The notes under the pieces: model-generated
The model's database searches: none
What the model was told of the DNA's origin: nothing
The model's input: the letters and a program-made list of their open reading frames with translations, nothing else
Position numbers and translations under genes: made by a program
Assembly: GCF_002863865.1 (NCBI RefSeq)
Contig: NZ_CP022684.1
Coordinates: 1,579,501 to 1,643,500, forward strand
Direction: 5' to 3'
Source: Ketobacter alkanivorans
GTDB taxonomy: Bacteria; Pseudomonadota; Gammaproteobacteria; Pseudomonadales; Ketobacteraceae
DNA: 64,000 nt
Part shown: in pieces, positions 39,474 through 49,582 of the stretch
Position numbering within the stretch: the first letter of the stretch is position 1
Layout: every line of letters begins with the position of its first letter

Positions 39474-39825
39474 GGGGGCGACATTGGCTTCGACGTTGAT
39501 TACAAACCCTTTGGTGCATGTCGTGTGGGTAGCAACACACGTACTTCAAGTGCTGCAAATGATAGTTGCAAACGACGACAACTACGCTTTAGCCGCTTAA
39601 GGCTAAACCGCCACAAGGGCTTGCTTGTGGGAACGAAGTGGCGGTAATTAAACACAAGATCGCGGCGCGGCCTGCCTGGTGCCAAACCGCTAAAACCTTA
39701 CAGGCTGGCTTTTTACTCCCTGTCTAGTCGGGTCGTAACGAGCGAGATTAATAGACAAGACTAAGCATGTAGATCCTTAGGCAGCGGATTGGCGGACGCG
39801 GGTTCGATCCCCGCCGCCTCCACCA
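39474..39825 (+). ncRNA. ssrA: Transfer-messenger RNA (tmRNA, SsrA)
   Basis: 352 nt. The tRNA-like ends pair: GGGGGCG (39474-39480) with CGCCTCC (39815-39821), then A and an encoded CCA. The T-arm GGTTCGATCCC is present. The 5' part has the conserved GGCTTCGACG. The resume codon GCA at 39568 opens the tag frame ANDDNYALAA, ending at TAA 39600; E. coli has ANDENYALAA. A possible -10 box TACAAT lies at 39459-39464 with a poor -35 (TTATAT). smpB lies upstream. No integrase flanks this common island attachment site. Confidence 0.97.
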
Positions 39826-39954: not shown

Positions 39955-41232
39955 TTATTCCGGATCATTTTGTGCAGAGTTTTTTAACCGGTTTTTGGCT
40001 TCAATCCACTGCGACATATAGCGCGTACTTTTCAAACTGTGATGTCTCAGCATCTGGCTGTAGAAGTGCGCCTGCCGGTGCTCATCCAGCGTTGCCCTTA
40101 ACTGGGTAATCCGCTGTTTCAAACGCGGTGCGTGGGTGGCAAATGAAAAGCGCTGCTCCAGTAACCCTAAGCCATTACGGTGCAGGGGCAGCCACTGATC
40201 TTCATTCTGATACAGACCCACCGCAGCTAACGCAAACGCCTCTGGCGTATCGGCCACCACAGCACATGGCGGGGCATCATCACCGTACATGCCTTCGGCA
40301 CCGATGCTGGTGGTGACGGCAGGCGTGCCATTGCGGGCTGCATCAATCAATTTACCTTTAAGACCGGCGCCAAAGCGCAGCGGGGCCAGCATCACCCGTG
40401 CCTGCCCCACCACCTGTTGAGCATCCGGGGCCCAGCCTTTCACCAGAAAACCACTACGATCATTGTGGAGCTGTGTGGTTTTTTTCGGAGGGTAGGCGCC
40501 GTAAATATGCAGCTCCGCCTGTGGCAGTTGCTGGCGGATTAACGGCCACAAAGCCTCTTTTAAATAACGTACCGCGTCCCAGTTGGGTTCGTGGCGGAAA
40601 TTACCGATGGACACAAAATGCGCCCGCTGTGCAAACGGCACGGTGCTTTGTGCATTCGTCACCTCTTCCATAAACGGCACGTACAGTAACTGAGTCGGCG
40701 GCGCCTGAAAAAAGCGGGTTAAATATTCGATTTCTGCTTCGGAAATCATCAGCGACACATCGCAGCGCAGTATAGAGGCCACCTCGCGCAGGGCTAGCTC
40801 GCTGTGACGGAATTCAATGTCAGGAATAAGCGGCATGTTGAGGGGCTGCCGCTTCAGCTGGGCGGCGCGGGCATGGCGCAGGCAGTGAAGATCTTCGGAG
40901 TCCAGCACACGCAATGCCCGCGGGCATTGCTCTTCAACGCGCCAGCCGAATTGTTCTTCCATCATAAATCGGTCGAACATCACCACATCCGGCTTTAGAT
41001 CACGAATGAAGCCGTCAAAAGAGGCGCAATTCAACGCCAGTGCCACGGCCTCGATATCAAGTGCTGCCAGATCAGGGGCATGGGGACTGGCCTCCGCAGG
41101 CGTTCCATACACCACGCGATAACCATCCTGCTGAAAGGCTTGGATCAGCTGCAGCAGGCGGCTGCCTGCCGCAGAGGATGCGGGTTCCGGCCAGACATAG
41201 CCGATGACGAGTAATACGGGGGATACGGACAT
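39955..41232 (-). CDS. GT4-like glycosyltransferase
   Basis: 425 aa. An N-terminal Rossmann domain (VLLVIGYVWPEPASSAAGSR) and a C-terminal glycosyltransferase group 1 domain with VSIGNFRHEPNWDAVRYL, VKGWAPDAQQV and the sugar-nucleotide loop PLRFGAGLKGKLIDAARNG are visible; this layout is the GT-B fold of family 4 (Glyco_trans_1_4). Acceptor and sugar are unknown. It stands alone: no other glycan gene is adjacent, and it follows ssrA in the opposite direction. A TATAAT lies about 29 nt before the ATG. Confidence 0.85.
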   Translation of the reverse strand: MSVSPVLLVIGYVWPEPASSAAGSRLLQLIQAFQQDGYRVVYGTPAEASPHAPDLAALDIEAVALALNCASFDGFIRDLKPDVVMFDRFMMEEQFGWRVEEQCPRALRVLDSEDLHCLRHARAAQLKRQPLNMPLIPDIEFRHSELALREVASILRCDVSLMISEAEIEYLTRFFQAPPTQLLYVPFMEEVTNAQSTVPFAQRAHFVSIGNFRHEPNWDAVRYLKEALWPLIRQQLPQAELHIYGAYPPKKTTQLHNDRSGFLVKGWAPDAQQVVGQARVMLAPLRFGAGLKGKLIDAARNGTPAVTTSIGAEGMYGDDAPPCAVVADTPEAFALAAVGLYQNEDQWLPLHRNGLGLLEQRFSFATHAPRLKQRITQLRATLDEHRQAHFYSQMLRHHSLKSTRYMSQWIEAKNRLKNSAQNDPE

Positions 41233-41553: not shown

Positions 41554-41976
41554 TTACCAAACCTTATCAACAACCAACAAACGTTGTAACTCCGATGATT
41601 GCTCCATCTCGCTTATACTGCCTCGAAATAACTCAACACGATCTACATTCTGCGGATTAGGTATTTTTAGTATGTAGCTATCAGGCGCTTGGTAATCTTG
41701 TAGCGCTTCCACGGGTAACGCAGCGAGGCGAAGCCAACTGTCTTCCAAGAAATACTCATAAACTTGGCCACCTGAGTTGTTGTAAGCAACCACCCGAATG
41801 AACTGTTCTGCGGGGGCATTGCGTTCGGCGGCAACATCTCTCGTAGTTGTCCATGCTTTAAACAACCTATGGTTTTGATGTTCTACCGTTATTTGCAGCA
41901 TAAGGGTGTCGGCATGGCTCAATGCAGATACGAACAACGCTGATACAAGTACAATCTTTTTAGTTACATTCATCAT
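41554..41976 (-). CDS. Small exported protein paired with the M64 peptidase, unknown function
   Basis: 140 aa. A clear signal peptide (about 1-22, ending SHA) precedes a mature beta-rich domain of about 118 residues with no Cys. I know no family for it. It begins only 12 nt after the M64 peptidase stop, with AAGGGA before a double ATG (41976/41973), so it is cotranscribed and probably under the same riboswitch. A role as inhibitor, chaperone or accessory factor of the peptidase is plausible but only inference. Confidence 0.75.
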   Translation of the reverse strand: MMNVTKKIVLVSALFVSALSHADTLMLQITVEHQNHRLFKAWTTTRDVAAERNAPAEQFIRVVAYNNSGGQVYEYFLEDSWLRLAALPVEALQDYQAPDSYILKIPNPQNVDRVELFRGSISEMEQSSELQRLLVVDKVW

Positions 41977-41987
41977 AAAAATTTCCC

Positions 41988-44258
41988 TTATTGAGCTGTG
42001 ACTTGCCAATGGATTTCTGTAGATGAGTAATTATCCACGTCCTTCAGAATCGTTCCGCTCTGGTCGGTCACCACAGCGACAACTTCATAGCTCCCCTGTT
42101 TAAAATATGGAATTCTAAATTGCTTATCAGGGCTGCTGGCCATCAACATACCATCAACATACCAATCGACTTTCTGAATGCCAAATTCATGCACAGACTC
42201 TACCGAGAAAAGAGCGAGTTCGTTTCTACTATGAAAATACATCTGCGTAGTATCCGGAATCGCTGTATGCACCGGTTTGGCTTTACTGTATACCCGTAAC
42301 GCCCAGGCTTCACTGTTGACTGCGTGAAACGGATTGCTTCCCGCCGAATTCATTTGTGAATTTATTGTTGGCCTCCAAACCCCGGAATTCCGATAGTTAC
42401 CGCCTTCATACAACCCGACTTTGCCTTCACCTTCAGTCAAGTGCGCGGTAGGTTCGAGCCAGTGCCGCCATTTTACCGTTTCAAGGTCGTTATTAATGGT
42501 TATATTTGCATTGCCGGGTTCAGTAGTTCTTGGCTCCGACGATCCACCATATTCATCAGCCAGTCCGCCAAAGGAATGCCCTAGCTCATGAATACTCACA
42601 CCAATGCTTGTAGGCGTTGCTGTCGATGTTGCAACACCACCAGCAACACCACCGTATTTCGTGCTATTAACCAACACAAGCACCGCATCGTACTGAGGGA
42701 AGTGCTCTGCGGCTACGCCTTTCGCAATAGTGCCATTCGCACTAACAACTCTGCTTGCACTGCTACAGCCTTTGCAAGACTCAAAGTATGTATCCTTTTC
42801 TATAGCAGGCTCAACTGAGCGGTCTGTTACCCCCGACTCATTTGATACCACACCCACCGCATGAATGTTCCAAGCCGATTGATGTATAGCGATTTCATGA
42901 AAACTCAAATACTTTTCTACAAAGTTTAGTACGGTTTGCTTGAACTTAGCTGCCTCTTCCTCTGTGAAACCATCACCGAGAACCACTAAATCTACGCCTT
43001 CACCATCATGTCGACCGATGAGAGTAACCGGCCCAAGGCCATCCCAGCGCTCTGCCGTGGGCAAAACAGAGTAGCTGTCCGTACACACCTGCTCACCACG
43101 GGCCGGCGTACCCTTAGCCGATACGGGGGTAACACAAGCCGATATCAACCTGCCAATATCGGCCTCTGCGGGTGTGTATCTGCGTTGATCAAATGTGACA
43201 TCTCCCACCTGCCAAACTACTTCGCTGCTTCCTTCATTTGAAAAATCACGATCATAGAAGAAATAGTTTAGTGAAAGCTCCTCTCCAACGGCAGGAACCC
43301 GAGCGAAAGCAAGATTCTGAATTTCGGGGGCATAGCCAAACGGTCCGATTCCTCTCGAGACTTCTTCGGCATTACTCATGCCATCATCGTCTGCATCTTC
43401 ATAGGCTCCATCAAGAGAAGACAATGGATCGAGCCCCCAACGGGCTTCTGATCCATCCAGAAGCCCATCAGAATCAGAGTCTTGCATATCTGGATTTGAG
43501 CCTATCAGGGTTTCACGAACGTCGGCCAAGCCATCGTTGTCAGAATCTAGCAGATCACACTCTGCTTTTACCTCAACCCTGAAAAACTCGGCCTTATATC
43601 CCACAAGCTGTAAGGTTTCAGTCCGGCTATCAAGGCGATCGATGTTATACCACTGGGTGGCAGGGGTATCGACAGCCGAGATGTCTAACCGCGGCTCGAT
43701 GACTAAACCATCCTCCGCGCGGGTAAGTGTATAGTAACGGTTGCCCCACCAATCTCCCCTCGTATGGGTAACACCCAATTGATAGCTATCACAAAACATA
43801 TCGCTAAGTGACAAATCTATATTCACTTTGTAATACAGAGAGTGCGTACTACTACGGAATTTTGCGTCGTCACCGCCGAAAGCAACCGGCGACAGACTGG
43901 CATTCAAATGTTGTTTGGTGACCAGTTGCGAGAATAGCTCCTCAGTCAAGGGGGCATCCCCCGAAGAAATATCAGAGAAGTCTTCTATTAGGTGGTAGTT
44001 AGTCGTGATAACAACCGGCATAAGCGGTCGCTGCTCTAGAAAGGGGGCAACAGAGTCTTGGGGTTCCTCACTGGCATCATCTACGCCGTCAGAATCGTTA
44101 TCTACATTACTATCGCTACTGCCTGAACCCAATTGCGTCCCGTCACCCTGATTCCCTTCGGTGTTCGGCGCTGAAGTACTACCACCCCCGCCGCAAGCAG
44201 CAAGGGTTAACAGGGTATAAGCCAGAAGCGAGATTTTGAATCTAGACTGAAAGGGCAT
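41988..44258 (-). CDS. M64-family zinc metallopeptidase lipoprotein with Ca-binding repeats
   Basis: 756 aa. A lipoprotein signal ends LAAC (Cys22), followed by a Gly/Ser/Asn-rich linker. Calcium-binding thrombospondin-3-like Asp repeats occur at about 53-64, 238-249, 260-271 and 288-298 (for example DSDNDGLAD, DSDSDGLLDGSE). The peptidase domain starts near 410 (GEGVDLVVLGDGF), with the zinc site HELGHSFGGLADE at 557-569. A C-terminal beta-sandwich (about 675-756) resembles a PKD/Ig domain. M64 enzymes include IgA protease of Clostridium ramosum; the substrate here is unknown. A GTG 12 nt upstream is possible, but the ATG at 44258 has GAGGA 6 nt upstream. A c-di-GMP riboswitch precedes it. 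Confidence 0.88.
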   Translation of the reverse strand: MPFQSRFKISLLAYTLLTLAACGGGGSTSAPNTEGNQGDGTQLGSGSSDSNVDNDSDGVDDASEEPQDSVAPFLEQRPLMPVVITTNYHLIEDFSDISSGDAPLTEELFSQLVTKQHLNASLSPVAFGGDDAKFRSSTHSLYYKVNIDLSLSDMFCDSYQLGVTHTRGDWWGNRYYTLTRAEDGLVIEPRLDISAVDTPATQWYNIDRLDSRTETLQLVGYKAEFFRVEVKAECDLLDSDNDGLADVRETLIGSNPDMQDSDSDGLLDGSEARWGLDPLSSLDGAYEDADDDGMSNAEEVSRGIGPFGYAPEIQNLAFARVPAVGEELSLNYFFYDRDFSNEGSSEVVWQVGDVTFDQRRYTPAEADIGRLISACVTPVSAKGTPARGEQVCTDSYSVLPTAERWDGLGPVTLIGRHDGEGVDLVVLGDGFTEEEAAKFKQTVLNFVEKYLSFHEIAIHQSAWNIHAVGVVSNESGVTDRSVEPAIEKDTYFESCKGCSSASRVVSANGTIAKGVAAEHFPQYDAVLVLVNSTKYGGVAGGVATSTATPTSIGVSIHELGHSFGGLADEYGGSSEPRTTEPGNANITINNDLETVKWRHWLEPTAHLTEGEGKVGLYEGGNYRNSGVWRPTINSQMNSAGSNPFHAVNSEAWALRVYSKAKPVHTAIPDTTQMYFHSRNELALFSVESVHEFGIQKVDWYVDGMLMASSPDKQFRIPYFKQGSYEVVAVVTDQSGTILKDVDNYSSTEIHWQVTAQ

Positions 44259-44290
44259 AGCTTTCCTCACCGATGATGTAAATTTCGAGA

Positions 44291-44320
44291 AAAGCAGCCC
44301 GGATTTACTGGGCTATCCGG
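44291..44320 (-). terminator. Expression platform of the riboswitch: terminator/antiterminator
   Basis: AGCCC (44314-44310) pairs with GGGCT (44300-44296), then GCTTTTCTC, a plausible short terminator before the M64 start. CCGGAT (44320-44315) can instead pair with ATCCGG (44304-44299), which would break that stem. CCGGAT's first bases also pair with the preceding TCCGG. Such mutually exclusive stems are what a transcriptional riboswitch needs. Confidence 0.6.
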
Positions 44321-44337
44321 CCAATGTCCGGAAATAT

Positions 44338-44420
44338 GGCAACCCCGCTATCATAAGATCCCAATACAGGATCTCTTAGACTGGAAGCTTTGCGCCTCAA
44401 GGTTTTCACCCAGATTTGCC
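44338..44420 (-). promoter_or_regulatory. Cyclic-di-GMP-I (GEMM) riboswitch
   Basis: Read on the minus strand, all GEMM-I landmarks occur in order: GGCAA (44420-44416) closing P1 with TTGCC (44342-44338); a hairpin with GGT-GAAA-ACC carrying the GNRA tetraloop (44410-44401); the invariant CGCAAAGC (44394-44387); a second arm with the tetraloop receptor TCTAAG ... TATGA and a perfect AGATCC/GGATCT stem (44373-44356); and TAGCGGGGTTGCC, nearly identical to the Vibrio Vc2 3' end. The only downstream gene is the M64 peptidase, so c-di-GMP should control its expression. Confidence 0.88.
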
Positions 44421-44686
44421 TTTCTCATAACAGTTCTAGGGCAGCTGAAAACGCCTGCCGCTGAGATTTCAGTGGTTAGTATCAAGTAACATGTCACTTA
44501 AATCCAATGCATTAAAATCACCATTACGATGCATTAAACGCATCATGGGTCTATGATTAGCGGGGTTCCTAAAGGGTTTTCGATAATGGCCATCACCATC
44601 AAGGTTTTAATGTCAGCGACGACAGCGGTTAACGCACGCAATAAAATTGCTTTAGATACAACAACATGTGAGCACATTAGATACGT
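44421..44686. other. Gap between riboswitch and lysR
   Basis: Must hold the minus-strand promoter of the riboswitch-M64 transcript and the plus-strand promoter of the LysR gene. No clear boxes can be chosen. Copies of GATGCATTAAA/AATGCATTAAAA around 44505-44535 look like a short repeat and could be a LysR-type binding region. Confidence 0.35.
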
Positions 44687-45592
44687 ATGATTAATTCTAA
44701 GAAAATCATGCATTTTGTTGGAGTCGCTAAAGCGGGAAACTTTAATGATGCCGCGCGGCAACTGCACATATCGCAACCAGCACTATCAAGGAGCATTCAA
44801 AGCCTAGAACAAAGCCTCAATGTAACGCTGTTCGATAGAAGCCAGCGCGTCATCAAACTGACCAAGGATGGATTCCACCTGCTAAAACATGCCCACTCTG
44901 TCATGCAGGATCTGGAAAACTTTGTTATCGAGTCTAAACGGCTAACCCAATTAGAAGCAGGATCTTTAACTGTTGGTACAGGCCCCTTGCCTGCCGATCA
45001 TGTTGGTGCGCAAGCCTGCGCAGACTTTCTAATTCAACATCCGGATGTACAACTCACCCTCACCGTCGACGAACCAGCAAACCTGGTTAAGAAATTAGTT
45101 CAAGGCGAAATTGATATATTGATTGCGGATCCCCGCGGCCTGGACTCTGTTGAAAACCTTCACTTTGCTCACTTATCTAAATTCCCGACACTGGCTGTCG
45201 CGAGAGCAAACCACCCTCTATCGACCAAACACAGTTTAACCGCTGAAGACATTACACAGTTCCCTCTTGCCAGCATCAGCAAAGCTGCTTCTCGTTTTTT
45301 CATGGATCACCTCGGAGTTGCAGATAGTGGGGGGAACCGGTTTTTCAATTACCACTGTAATAGCGTACAACTCATGCTCACAACTTTAAAACACAGTGAT
45401 CTGATAGGCATATTGTTAAGCTGTAACGTTATCAAAGAATTGGAGCGAGAGGAGTTATGTATCCTAGACGTACCAGCTATTAACCATAGAATATACAGCG
45501 ACTACGCGATTATCACTTATCAGCCCAGGCTGCTTTCACTCGCAGCAGAGGCTTTCATTGAAATATGCAAAGAACTCATAGCATCAAACTGA
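44687..45592 (+). CDS. LysR-family transcriptional regulator
   Basis: 301 aa. The N-terminal winged helix (1-65) has the family pattern FVGVAKAGNFNDAARQLHISQPALSRSIQSLE; the effector-binding periplasmic-binding-protein-like domain covers about 90-300. It points toward the L,D-transpeptidase gene 146 nt downstream and away from the M64 gene. LysR proteins commonly control a divergent neighbour, so the M64 leader is a candidate target (inference). The ligand is unknown. Confidence 0.9.
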   Translation: MINSKKIMHFVGVAKAGNFNDAARQLHISQPALSRSIQSLEQSLNVTLFDRSQRVIKLTKDGFHLLKHAHSVMQDLENFVIESKRLTQLEAGSLTVGTGPLPADHVGAQACADFLIQHPDVQLTLTVDEPANLVKKLVQGEIDILIADPRGLDSVENLHFAHLSKFPTLAVARANHPLSTKHSLTAEDITQFPLASISKAASRFFMDHLGVADSGGNRFFNYHCNSVQLMLTTLKHSDLIGILLSCNVIKELEREELCILDVPAINHRIYSDYAIITYQPRLLSLAAEAFIEICKELIASN

Positions 45593-48646: not shown

Positions 48647-49582
48647 ATGAGAAAGTACCCCACCTCTTCCAGATGGATTGCAGCTCTTAGTTTTGCTGCA
48701 ATGGGATTGTTTTCAACCCAACTTCTAGCAATGAGCCAAGTACCACCCACTCCACCCACCGATGACCCCATGGGCGATTGTCCTTCCACGGCGATCTGTC
48801 GTGGGGAAGCCCCCGGCTCCTATAGTGGAAACGGCCCGTACGGCTCCCGCTCTTATACGTTGTCTCGGTTCCAAACACCGGGCGGTGCCACTGTTTATTA
48901 CCCCTCTAATGCCGAGCCTCCCTATTCGGGCCTGGTATTCACACCACCTTACACCGGCACCCAAGCAATGTTCCGTGCGTGGGGTCCATTCTTTGCTTCC
49001 CACGGTATCGTTCTGGTTACCATGGATACCTCCACCACAGTAGATACTGTAGACCAACGCGCCAGCCAGCAAAAACGCGTATTGGATGTGCTGAAGCAGG
49101 AAAACACCCGCTCAGGCAGCCCGCTGCGTGGCAAGCTCGACACTTCACGTTTAGGTGCTGTAGGCTGGTCTATGGGCGGCGGTGCCACCTGGATCAACTC
49201 AGCAGAATACAATGGCTTGAAAACCGCTATGTCTTTAGCGGGCCACAACATGACTGCAATAGATCTGGATTCAAAAGGCGGCAACACCCGCGTACCTACG
49301 CTGTTGTTTAACGGCGCGCTAGATTTAACAATGCTGGGCGGCCTCGGCCAGTCCATCGGTGTTTATAACGCTATTCCCCGTGGCATTCCTAAAGTAATCT
49401 ACGAAGTAGCATCTGCTGGCCATTTCGATTGGGGCAGCCCTACTGCAGCCAATCGCTCCGTTGCAGGAATTGCCTTGGCTTTCCACAAAACGTTTTTGGA
49501 TGGCGACACTCGCTGGGTTTCTTACATCAAGCGCCCAAGCAGTGACGTAGCCACCTGGCGAACCGAGAACCTACCACAGTAA
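48647..49582 (+). CDS. PETase/cutinase-like secreted polyester hydrolase
   Basis: 311 aa alpha/beta hydrolase. A signal peptide (about 1-28) is followed by a linker with the only two Cys (45, 51). Catalytic triad by alignment in mind with Ideonella PETase: Ser175 in GWSMGGG, Asp226 in VPTLLFNGALD, His259 in SAGHF. Oxyanion residues Tyr102 (PPYTGTQ) and Met176 agree, and so do HGIVLVTMDT, GKLDTSRLG and FLDGDTRW. Differences: both PETase disulfides are absent, and the flexible Trp185 position is His200 (AGHN). It should hydrolyse polyesters or short-chain esters outside the cell; activity on PET is not implied. It stands alone between hairpins. Confidence 0.88.
   Translation: MRKYPTSSRWIAALSFAAMGLFSTQLLAMSQVPPTPPTDDPMGDCPSTAICRGEAPGSYSGNGPYGSRSYTLSRFQTPGGATVYYPSNAEPPYSGLVFTPPYTGTQAMFRAWGPFFASHGIVLVTMDTSTTVDTVDQRASQQKRVLDVLKQENTRSGSPLRGKLDTSRLGAVGWSMGGGATWINSAEYNGLKTAMSLAGHNMTAIDLDSKGGNTRVPTLLFNGALDLTMLGGLGQSIGVYNAIPRGIPKVIYEVASAGHFDWGSPTAANRSVAGIALAFHKTFLDGDTRWVSYIKRPSSDVATWRTENLPQ

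Follow-up and report, generated by a model that had tools for sequence, protein, structure and literature searches.

In the gammaproteobacterium Ketobacter alkanivorans, a genuine c-di-GMP-I (GEMM-I) riboswitch stands in front of a gene encoding a metallopeptidase lipoprotein of the M64 (igalysin) family, and this riboswitch may control translation of the M64 operon as an OFF switch, a reading that we hold to be about evenly balanced between right and wrong. The aptamer, the order of the genes and the complementarity of a pyrimidine stretch both to the Shine-Dalgarno (SD) sequence and to the 5′ strand of the aptamer are seen directly in the window, the 64,000-nucleotide stretch of contig NZ_CP022684.1 that was analysed and to which all positions given below refer. 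If the reading is true, a lifestyle signal carried by c-di-GMP would be tied by RNA directly to a surface-anchored M64 peptidase, and a testable, defined translational platform would be available for a proteobacterial GEMM-I riboswitch.

A cmscan search against Rfam 15 matched the c-di-GMP-I model RF01051 to positions 44430-44335 of the minus strand, completely covering model positions 1-87 with 62.2 bits (E 8.9e-10) against a gathering score of 35 bits, in agreement with the initial annotation, which had placed a GEMM-I aptamer in the M64 leader. Genome-wide, this was the only match to the model in 4.9 Mb (E 1.6e-11). The contact and interhelical bases are intact, with G44420, C44394, A44391, G44348 and C44339 corresponding to G20, C44, A47, G83 and C92 of the Vibrio cholerae Vc2 aptamer, whose c-di-GMP contact residues have been named (PMC4744006) and whose numbering was transferred to window positions within the present analysis. 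The interhelical pair equivalent to Vc2 C44-G83 is formed by C44394 and G44348; helix P2 (44392-44419, minus strand; alignment and base check) carries a GAAA tetraloop at 44407-44404, and helix P3 (44341-44389, minus strand; alignment) contains the tetraloop receptor CUAAG/UAUGA. An A at position 20 marks the cGAMP-sensing GEMM-Ib subclass. The equivalent position in the Ketobacter aptamer is a G (G44420) and not an A, so that c-di-GMP rather than cGAMP is the expected ligand. Judged by these bases, the aptamer should bind c-di-GMP, and the 71 GGDEF matches in the genome make it very probable that this second messenger is produced. The individual motifs named in the initial annotation are all present and in the right order, but the consensus fold has no GGCAA/TTGCC helix; its P2 pairs GC44419-44418 with GC44393-44392. 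Likewise, the range given there for the element, 44420-44291, takes in most of the platform, yet its first base lies some 10 nt within the Rfam match, and it cuts the pyrimidine anti-SD and leaves the SD outside.

The M64 gene (41988-44258, minus strand; 756 amino acids) begins with an ATG at 44258, 76 nt downstream of the aptamer. Its product matches PF09471 with 119.1 bits against a cut-off of 26 (E 2.8e-34), the M64 domain being C-terminal, and it also contains aspartate-rich TSP3-like repeats and a lipoprotein signal peptide with the lipobox LLAYTLLTLAAC (LAAC), predicted by eye from the translation; the repeats are of the calcium type, and the earlier description of the riboswitch target as an M64 lipoprotein is supported. 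The zinc motif HELGHSFGGLAD in the translation fits the igalysin signature HExxHxxxGxxD, including the extra residue before the glycine (PMC12237041). This motif and the catalytic domain are shared with other M64 peptidases, namely the IgAse of T. ramosa and the nearest solved relatives, Bacteroides PDB 3p1v (E 8.4e-19) and 4df9; unlike these proteins, the Ketobacter peptidase has TSP3 repeats and a riboswitch, and there is no hint of IgA as its substrate. The small partner proposed for the M64 protein is encoded in the same direction, starting 11 nt past the M64 stop codon (41554-41976, minus strand), and is a secreted protein of 140 amino acids for which Pfam and NCBIfam searches returned no match and a single-sequence structure model had low confidence (pLDDT 61). 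In three other genomes (L106, L107, and L108), weak homologues of this partner lie directly 3′ of the closest M64 genes, from which it follows that the pairing of M64 gene and partner is probably older than the link to the riboswitch.

The expression platform contains a strong anti-SD, GCUUUUCUC (44287-44295, minus strand), which is fully complementary, with one G-U pair, to two partners. One is the SD GAGGAAAGC (44260-44268, minus strand), located immediately 5′ of the ATG; the anti-SD can pair with the SD region over 10 contiguous positions, and the duplex with the SD has -10.5 kcal/mol. The other is the 5′ strand of the aptamer, GAGAAAGGC (44418-44426, minus strand), a proposed anti-anti-SD that contains the ligand-contacting G44420 as well as the P2 bases 44419-44418 and whose duplex with 44295-44287 is nearly equal in strength (-10.7 kcal/mol). 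Without bases 44420-44418, which are held by the aptamer, the latter duplex is reduced from -10.7 to -4.3 kcal/mol. A linker hairpin, UCCGG/CCGGA (44316-44332, minus strand), has pair probabilities of mostly at least 0.9 in the apo and bound models. In the folding model, for which one energy-parameter set was used, the probability of the SD hairpin in a 171-nt transcript, the length at which the SD has emerged, is 0.07 for the apo form versus 0.84 when the aptamer fold is enforced, and this shift keeps the same sign, the bound form favouring the SD hairpin, across most of the RNA lengths and 5′ ends folded. Lengthening the leader at its 5′ end, to 44480, nearly abolishes the contrast between bound and apo forms at intermediate lengths, and in a 206-nt RNA that includes more coding sequence, equilibrium folding sequesters the SD in the apo and bound forms alike. 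Folding thus backs the predicted OFF direction only for 3′-truncated RNAs, and since the SD is hidden in both states at 206 nt, an OFF switch would need co-transcriptional timing.

Some likeness between a GEMM-I leader and any SD is expected, because both are purine-rich. When the linker was submitted to 10,000 dinucleotide shuffles, a post hoc test that was run after the pattern had been noticed, the complementarity of the anti-SD gave P = 0.015 for the SD, 0.003 for the leader and 0.0004 for both together. The SD duplex of the M64 gene is far stronger than those at 12 other start sites in the window, and the balance between leader and SD ranks with the strongest when some 50 riboswitch loci are compared, a level reached in none of 60 shuffles. 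A homologous leader was found in none of the genomes searched. The exchange of leader, anti-SD and SD was rejected as a general feature: locus L002 scores as high as the M64 locus, a level that its close relatives L003 and L146 fail to reach, and a weaker, similar exchange at four riboswitches of lipase genes from the same family (L012, L017, L019, and L020) concerns sequence shared by descent. These four conserved c-di-GMP-I riboswitches lie 5′ of lipase-like genes, and their leader ACAACACG is complementary to CGUGUUGCCG, which lies farther downstream within the linker.

According to the proposed translational OFF mechanism, GAGAAAGGC would pair with GCUUUUCUC at low c-di-GMP and so keep the anti-SD off the ribosome-binding site. 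Binding of c-di-GMP would lock G44420, G44419 and C44418 in the aptamer and deprive the leader duplex of three pairs, whereupon the freed GCUUUUCUC would shift onto GAGGAAAGC and initiation would be blocked. Conversely, when c-di-GMP falls, the peptidase would be made and might cut surface or matrix proteins at detachment. A class I riboswitch that represses a secreted metalloprotease is already known from Clostridioides difficile, where rising c-di-GMP lowers ZmpI (PPEP-1, CD2830) through Cdi-1-12 (PMC6200980) and where ZmpI cleaves surface proteins (PMC6200980, PMC6366702). In both organisms a c-di-GMP-I riboswitch precedes the gene of a secreted zinc metalloprotease; however, the Ketobacter peptidase belongs to M64 and not to PPEP-1, and whereas the host of ZmpI is Gram-positive, the Ketobacter enzyme is a lipoprotein encoded behind a predicted translational platform.

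The same RNA could in principle work in the opposite direction. As an ON switch, the bound aptamer would dock a P1 helix, GAGAAA:UUUCUC, that holds the anti-SD off the SD, or the AGCCC/GGGCU hairpin would break a GGGC:GCCC clamp and thereby free the AUG. The GAGAAA:UUUCUC pairing is still possible in the bound model, with a probability of 1.0 at 145-160 nt, the clamp beside the start codon drops from 0.95 in the apo form to 0.21 in the bound form at 206 nt, and Vc1 of V. cholerae activates the surface-protein gene gbpA (PMC4744006). We nevertheless regard an ON switch as unlikely, given that ligand binding strips three leader pairs, after which the model favours the SD hairpin, and that the 3′ strand of this P1 would lie approximately 44 nt from the aptamer. 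Control could also be exerted on transcription, the initial annotation having described the stems behind the aptamer as terminator and antiterminator. In such an OFF switch the ligand would free AGCCC, so that the AGCCC/GGGCU hairpin (44296-44314, minus strand; loop of 9) terminates transcription at UUUUCUC, the apo antiterminator being formed by the 3′ strand of P3 (GGGGUU:AGCCC). This latter pairing exists, reaching 0.89 in the 206-nt apo fold, and UUUUCUC follows the hairpin. At 140-150 nt, the length that matters, the hairpin nonetheless has a probability of at least 0.87 in both states (0.87 apo and 1.00 bound at 145 nt) and the antiterminator of at most 0.1 (0.10 at 145 nt). The hairpin is, moreover, worth merely -7.2 kcal/mol and is followed by a poor tail of broken U residues, GCUUUUCUCG, and a promoter/terminator scan of 44200-44760 detected no intrinsic terminator consisting of a GC-rich stem and a U-rich tract. 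The scan and the length-series folding together disfavour a terminator/antiterminator platform, and we consider transcriptional control quite improbable. Another riboswitch locus (L026, 1574-1690), where the aptamer is followed by an evident, strong terminator-like hairpin and a T run (CCCCTGCAG...CTGCAGGGGTGTTTTTG), would serve well as a contrasting case for transcriptional control.

Finally, the platform might be inert, an intact aptamer standing in front of a recently acquired gene whose main regulator is the divergent LysR protein. The riboswitch, the M64 gene and the LysR gene are all missing from the five sampled congeners, and the riboswitch occurs at no other sampled M64 locus; however, every ligand-contact base is retained and the anti-SD is unusually strong and balanced, which makes this explanation very unlikely in our view. 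The LysR-type regulator in question is encoded at 44687-45592 on the plus strand (PF00126/PF03466), divergently from the riboswitch leader, and may regulate the M64 promoter. Its best match in the sampled congeners has 30% identity. As neither riboswitch, nor M64 gene, nor close LysR relative was found in the five congeners, the locus looks like a species-specific accessory module. The glycosyltransferase gene at 39955-41232 has homologues of 88-89% identity in two congeners, where its neighbours differ. A tmRNA gene (39474-39825, plus strand) lies near the M64/LysR module; a second copy of the tmRNA 3′ end was sought in the window and none was found, so that no attachment repeat was seen there.

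M64 genes are scarce among relatives, being present in 8 of the 369 genomes from the class and 15 of the 392 from the order. An Rfam scan detected no RF01051 match near about 20 other M64 loci from class and order, and a conserved riboswitch-M64 pair was therefore rejected; four genomes (G013, G517, G596, and G634) carry both elements, at separate places. A whole-protein search of genome contigs was set aside, since it retrieved mostly TSP3-type repeats of unrelated proteins. In the open-access literature we found no paper on a riboswitch preceding an M64 gene, and the pairing with this family looks new. The claim in the initial annotation that the link to a protease was undescribed holds in this restricted sense but not generally, as ZmpI/PPEP-1 of C. 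difficile is controlled through Cdi-1-12 (PMC6200980) and other protease families are found behind such riboswitches in the order; in the broad sense, a riboswitch-protease link is already known. The Ketobacter aptamer shares its class and contact bases with the likewise gammaproteobacterial Vc1/gbpA and Vc2/tfoX of V. cholerae, and the target of Vc1 is also a secreted surface protein. Vc1 has been reported as activating and without apparent terminator or anti-SD, whereas an anti-SD is evident in the Ketobacter leader; the mechanism of both Vc1 and Vc2 was stated as unknown (PMC4744006).

A census of 392 genomes of the order yielded 75 c-di-GMP-I matches, spread over 50 of them. At least 11 of these 75 riboswitches stand in front of genes for secreted proteases (eight M11/M12-like, two S8 and the present M64), a number that is a lower bound because the downstream genes were classified in part. 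The M11/M12-like loci (L160, L170, L184, L185, L191, L192, L193, and L022) mostly encode Big_9/cadherin repeats; L022 was placed among them on account of an HExxH motif and a resemblance to the neighbouring L192. These are large secreted proteins from three families of the order, with the riboswitch immediately ahead of each gene, L022 and L192 being 9 kb apart in one genome. At the two S8 loci (L144 and L145), which come from two genomes of one family, the riboswitch lies 5′ of subtilases with a fervidolysin-like prodomain and an Ig domain. The M11/M12-like and S8 loci have the riboswitch family and the secreted-protease theme in common with the M64 locus but differ from it in protease family and in expression platform. 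If the Ketobacter reading is true, the riboswitch-protease pairs together suggest that riboswitches of this class act repeatedly on secreted proteases, in parallel to C. difficile PPEP-1. A wider proposal, tentative and more likely wrong than right, is that the 5′ strand of the aptamer, comprising the G that contacts c-di-GMP and two bases of P2, would act as an anti-anti-SD that is removed by ligand binding, and that GEMM-I riboswitches would have been recruited independently to M64, M11/M12-like and S8 proteases, which could free cells or matrix as c-di-GMP declines.

The other target genes inspected encode, in many cases, PEP-CTERM proteins, DUF4114 proteins, other secreted proteins or lipases. 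In one genome of the order (G554, contig 1, 1739317-1763549), five c-di-GMP-I matches (L149, L159, L161, L181, and L188) are clustered within about 24 kb, and one of these riboswitches precedes a gene whose large product contains SpaA-type prealbumin-like domains. In the window itself, positions 48647-49582 of the plus strand encode a PET-hydrolase-like secreted protein (PF12740, E 3e-46), which scores below the cut-off of the NCBIfam BHET hydrolase model.
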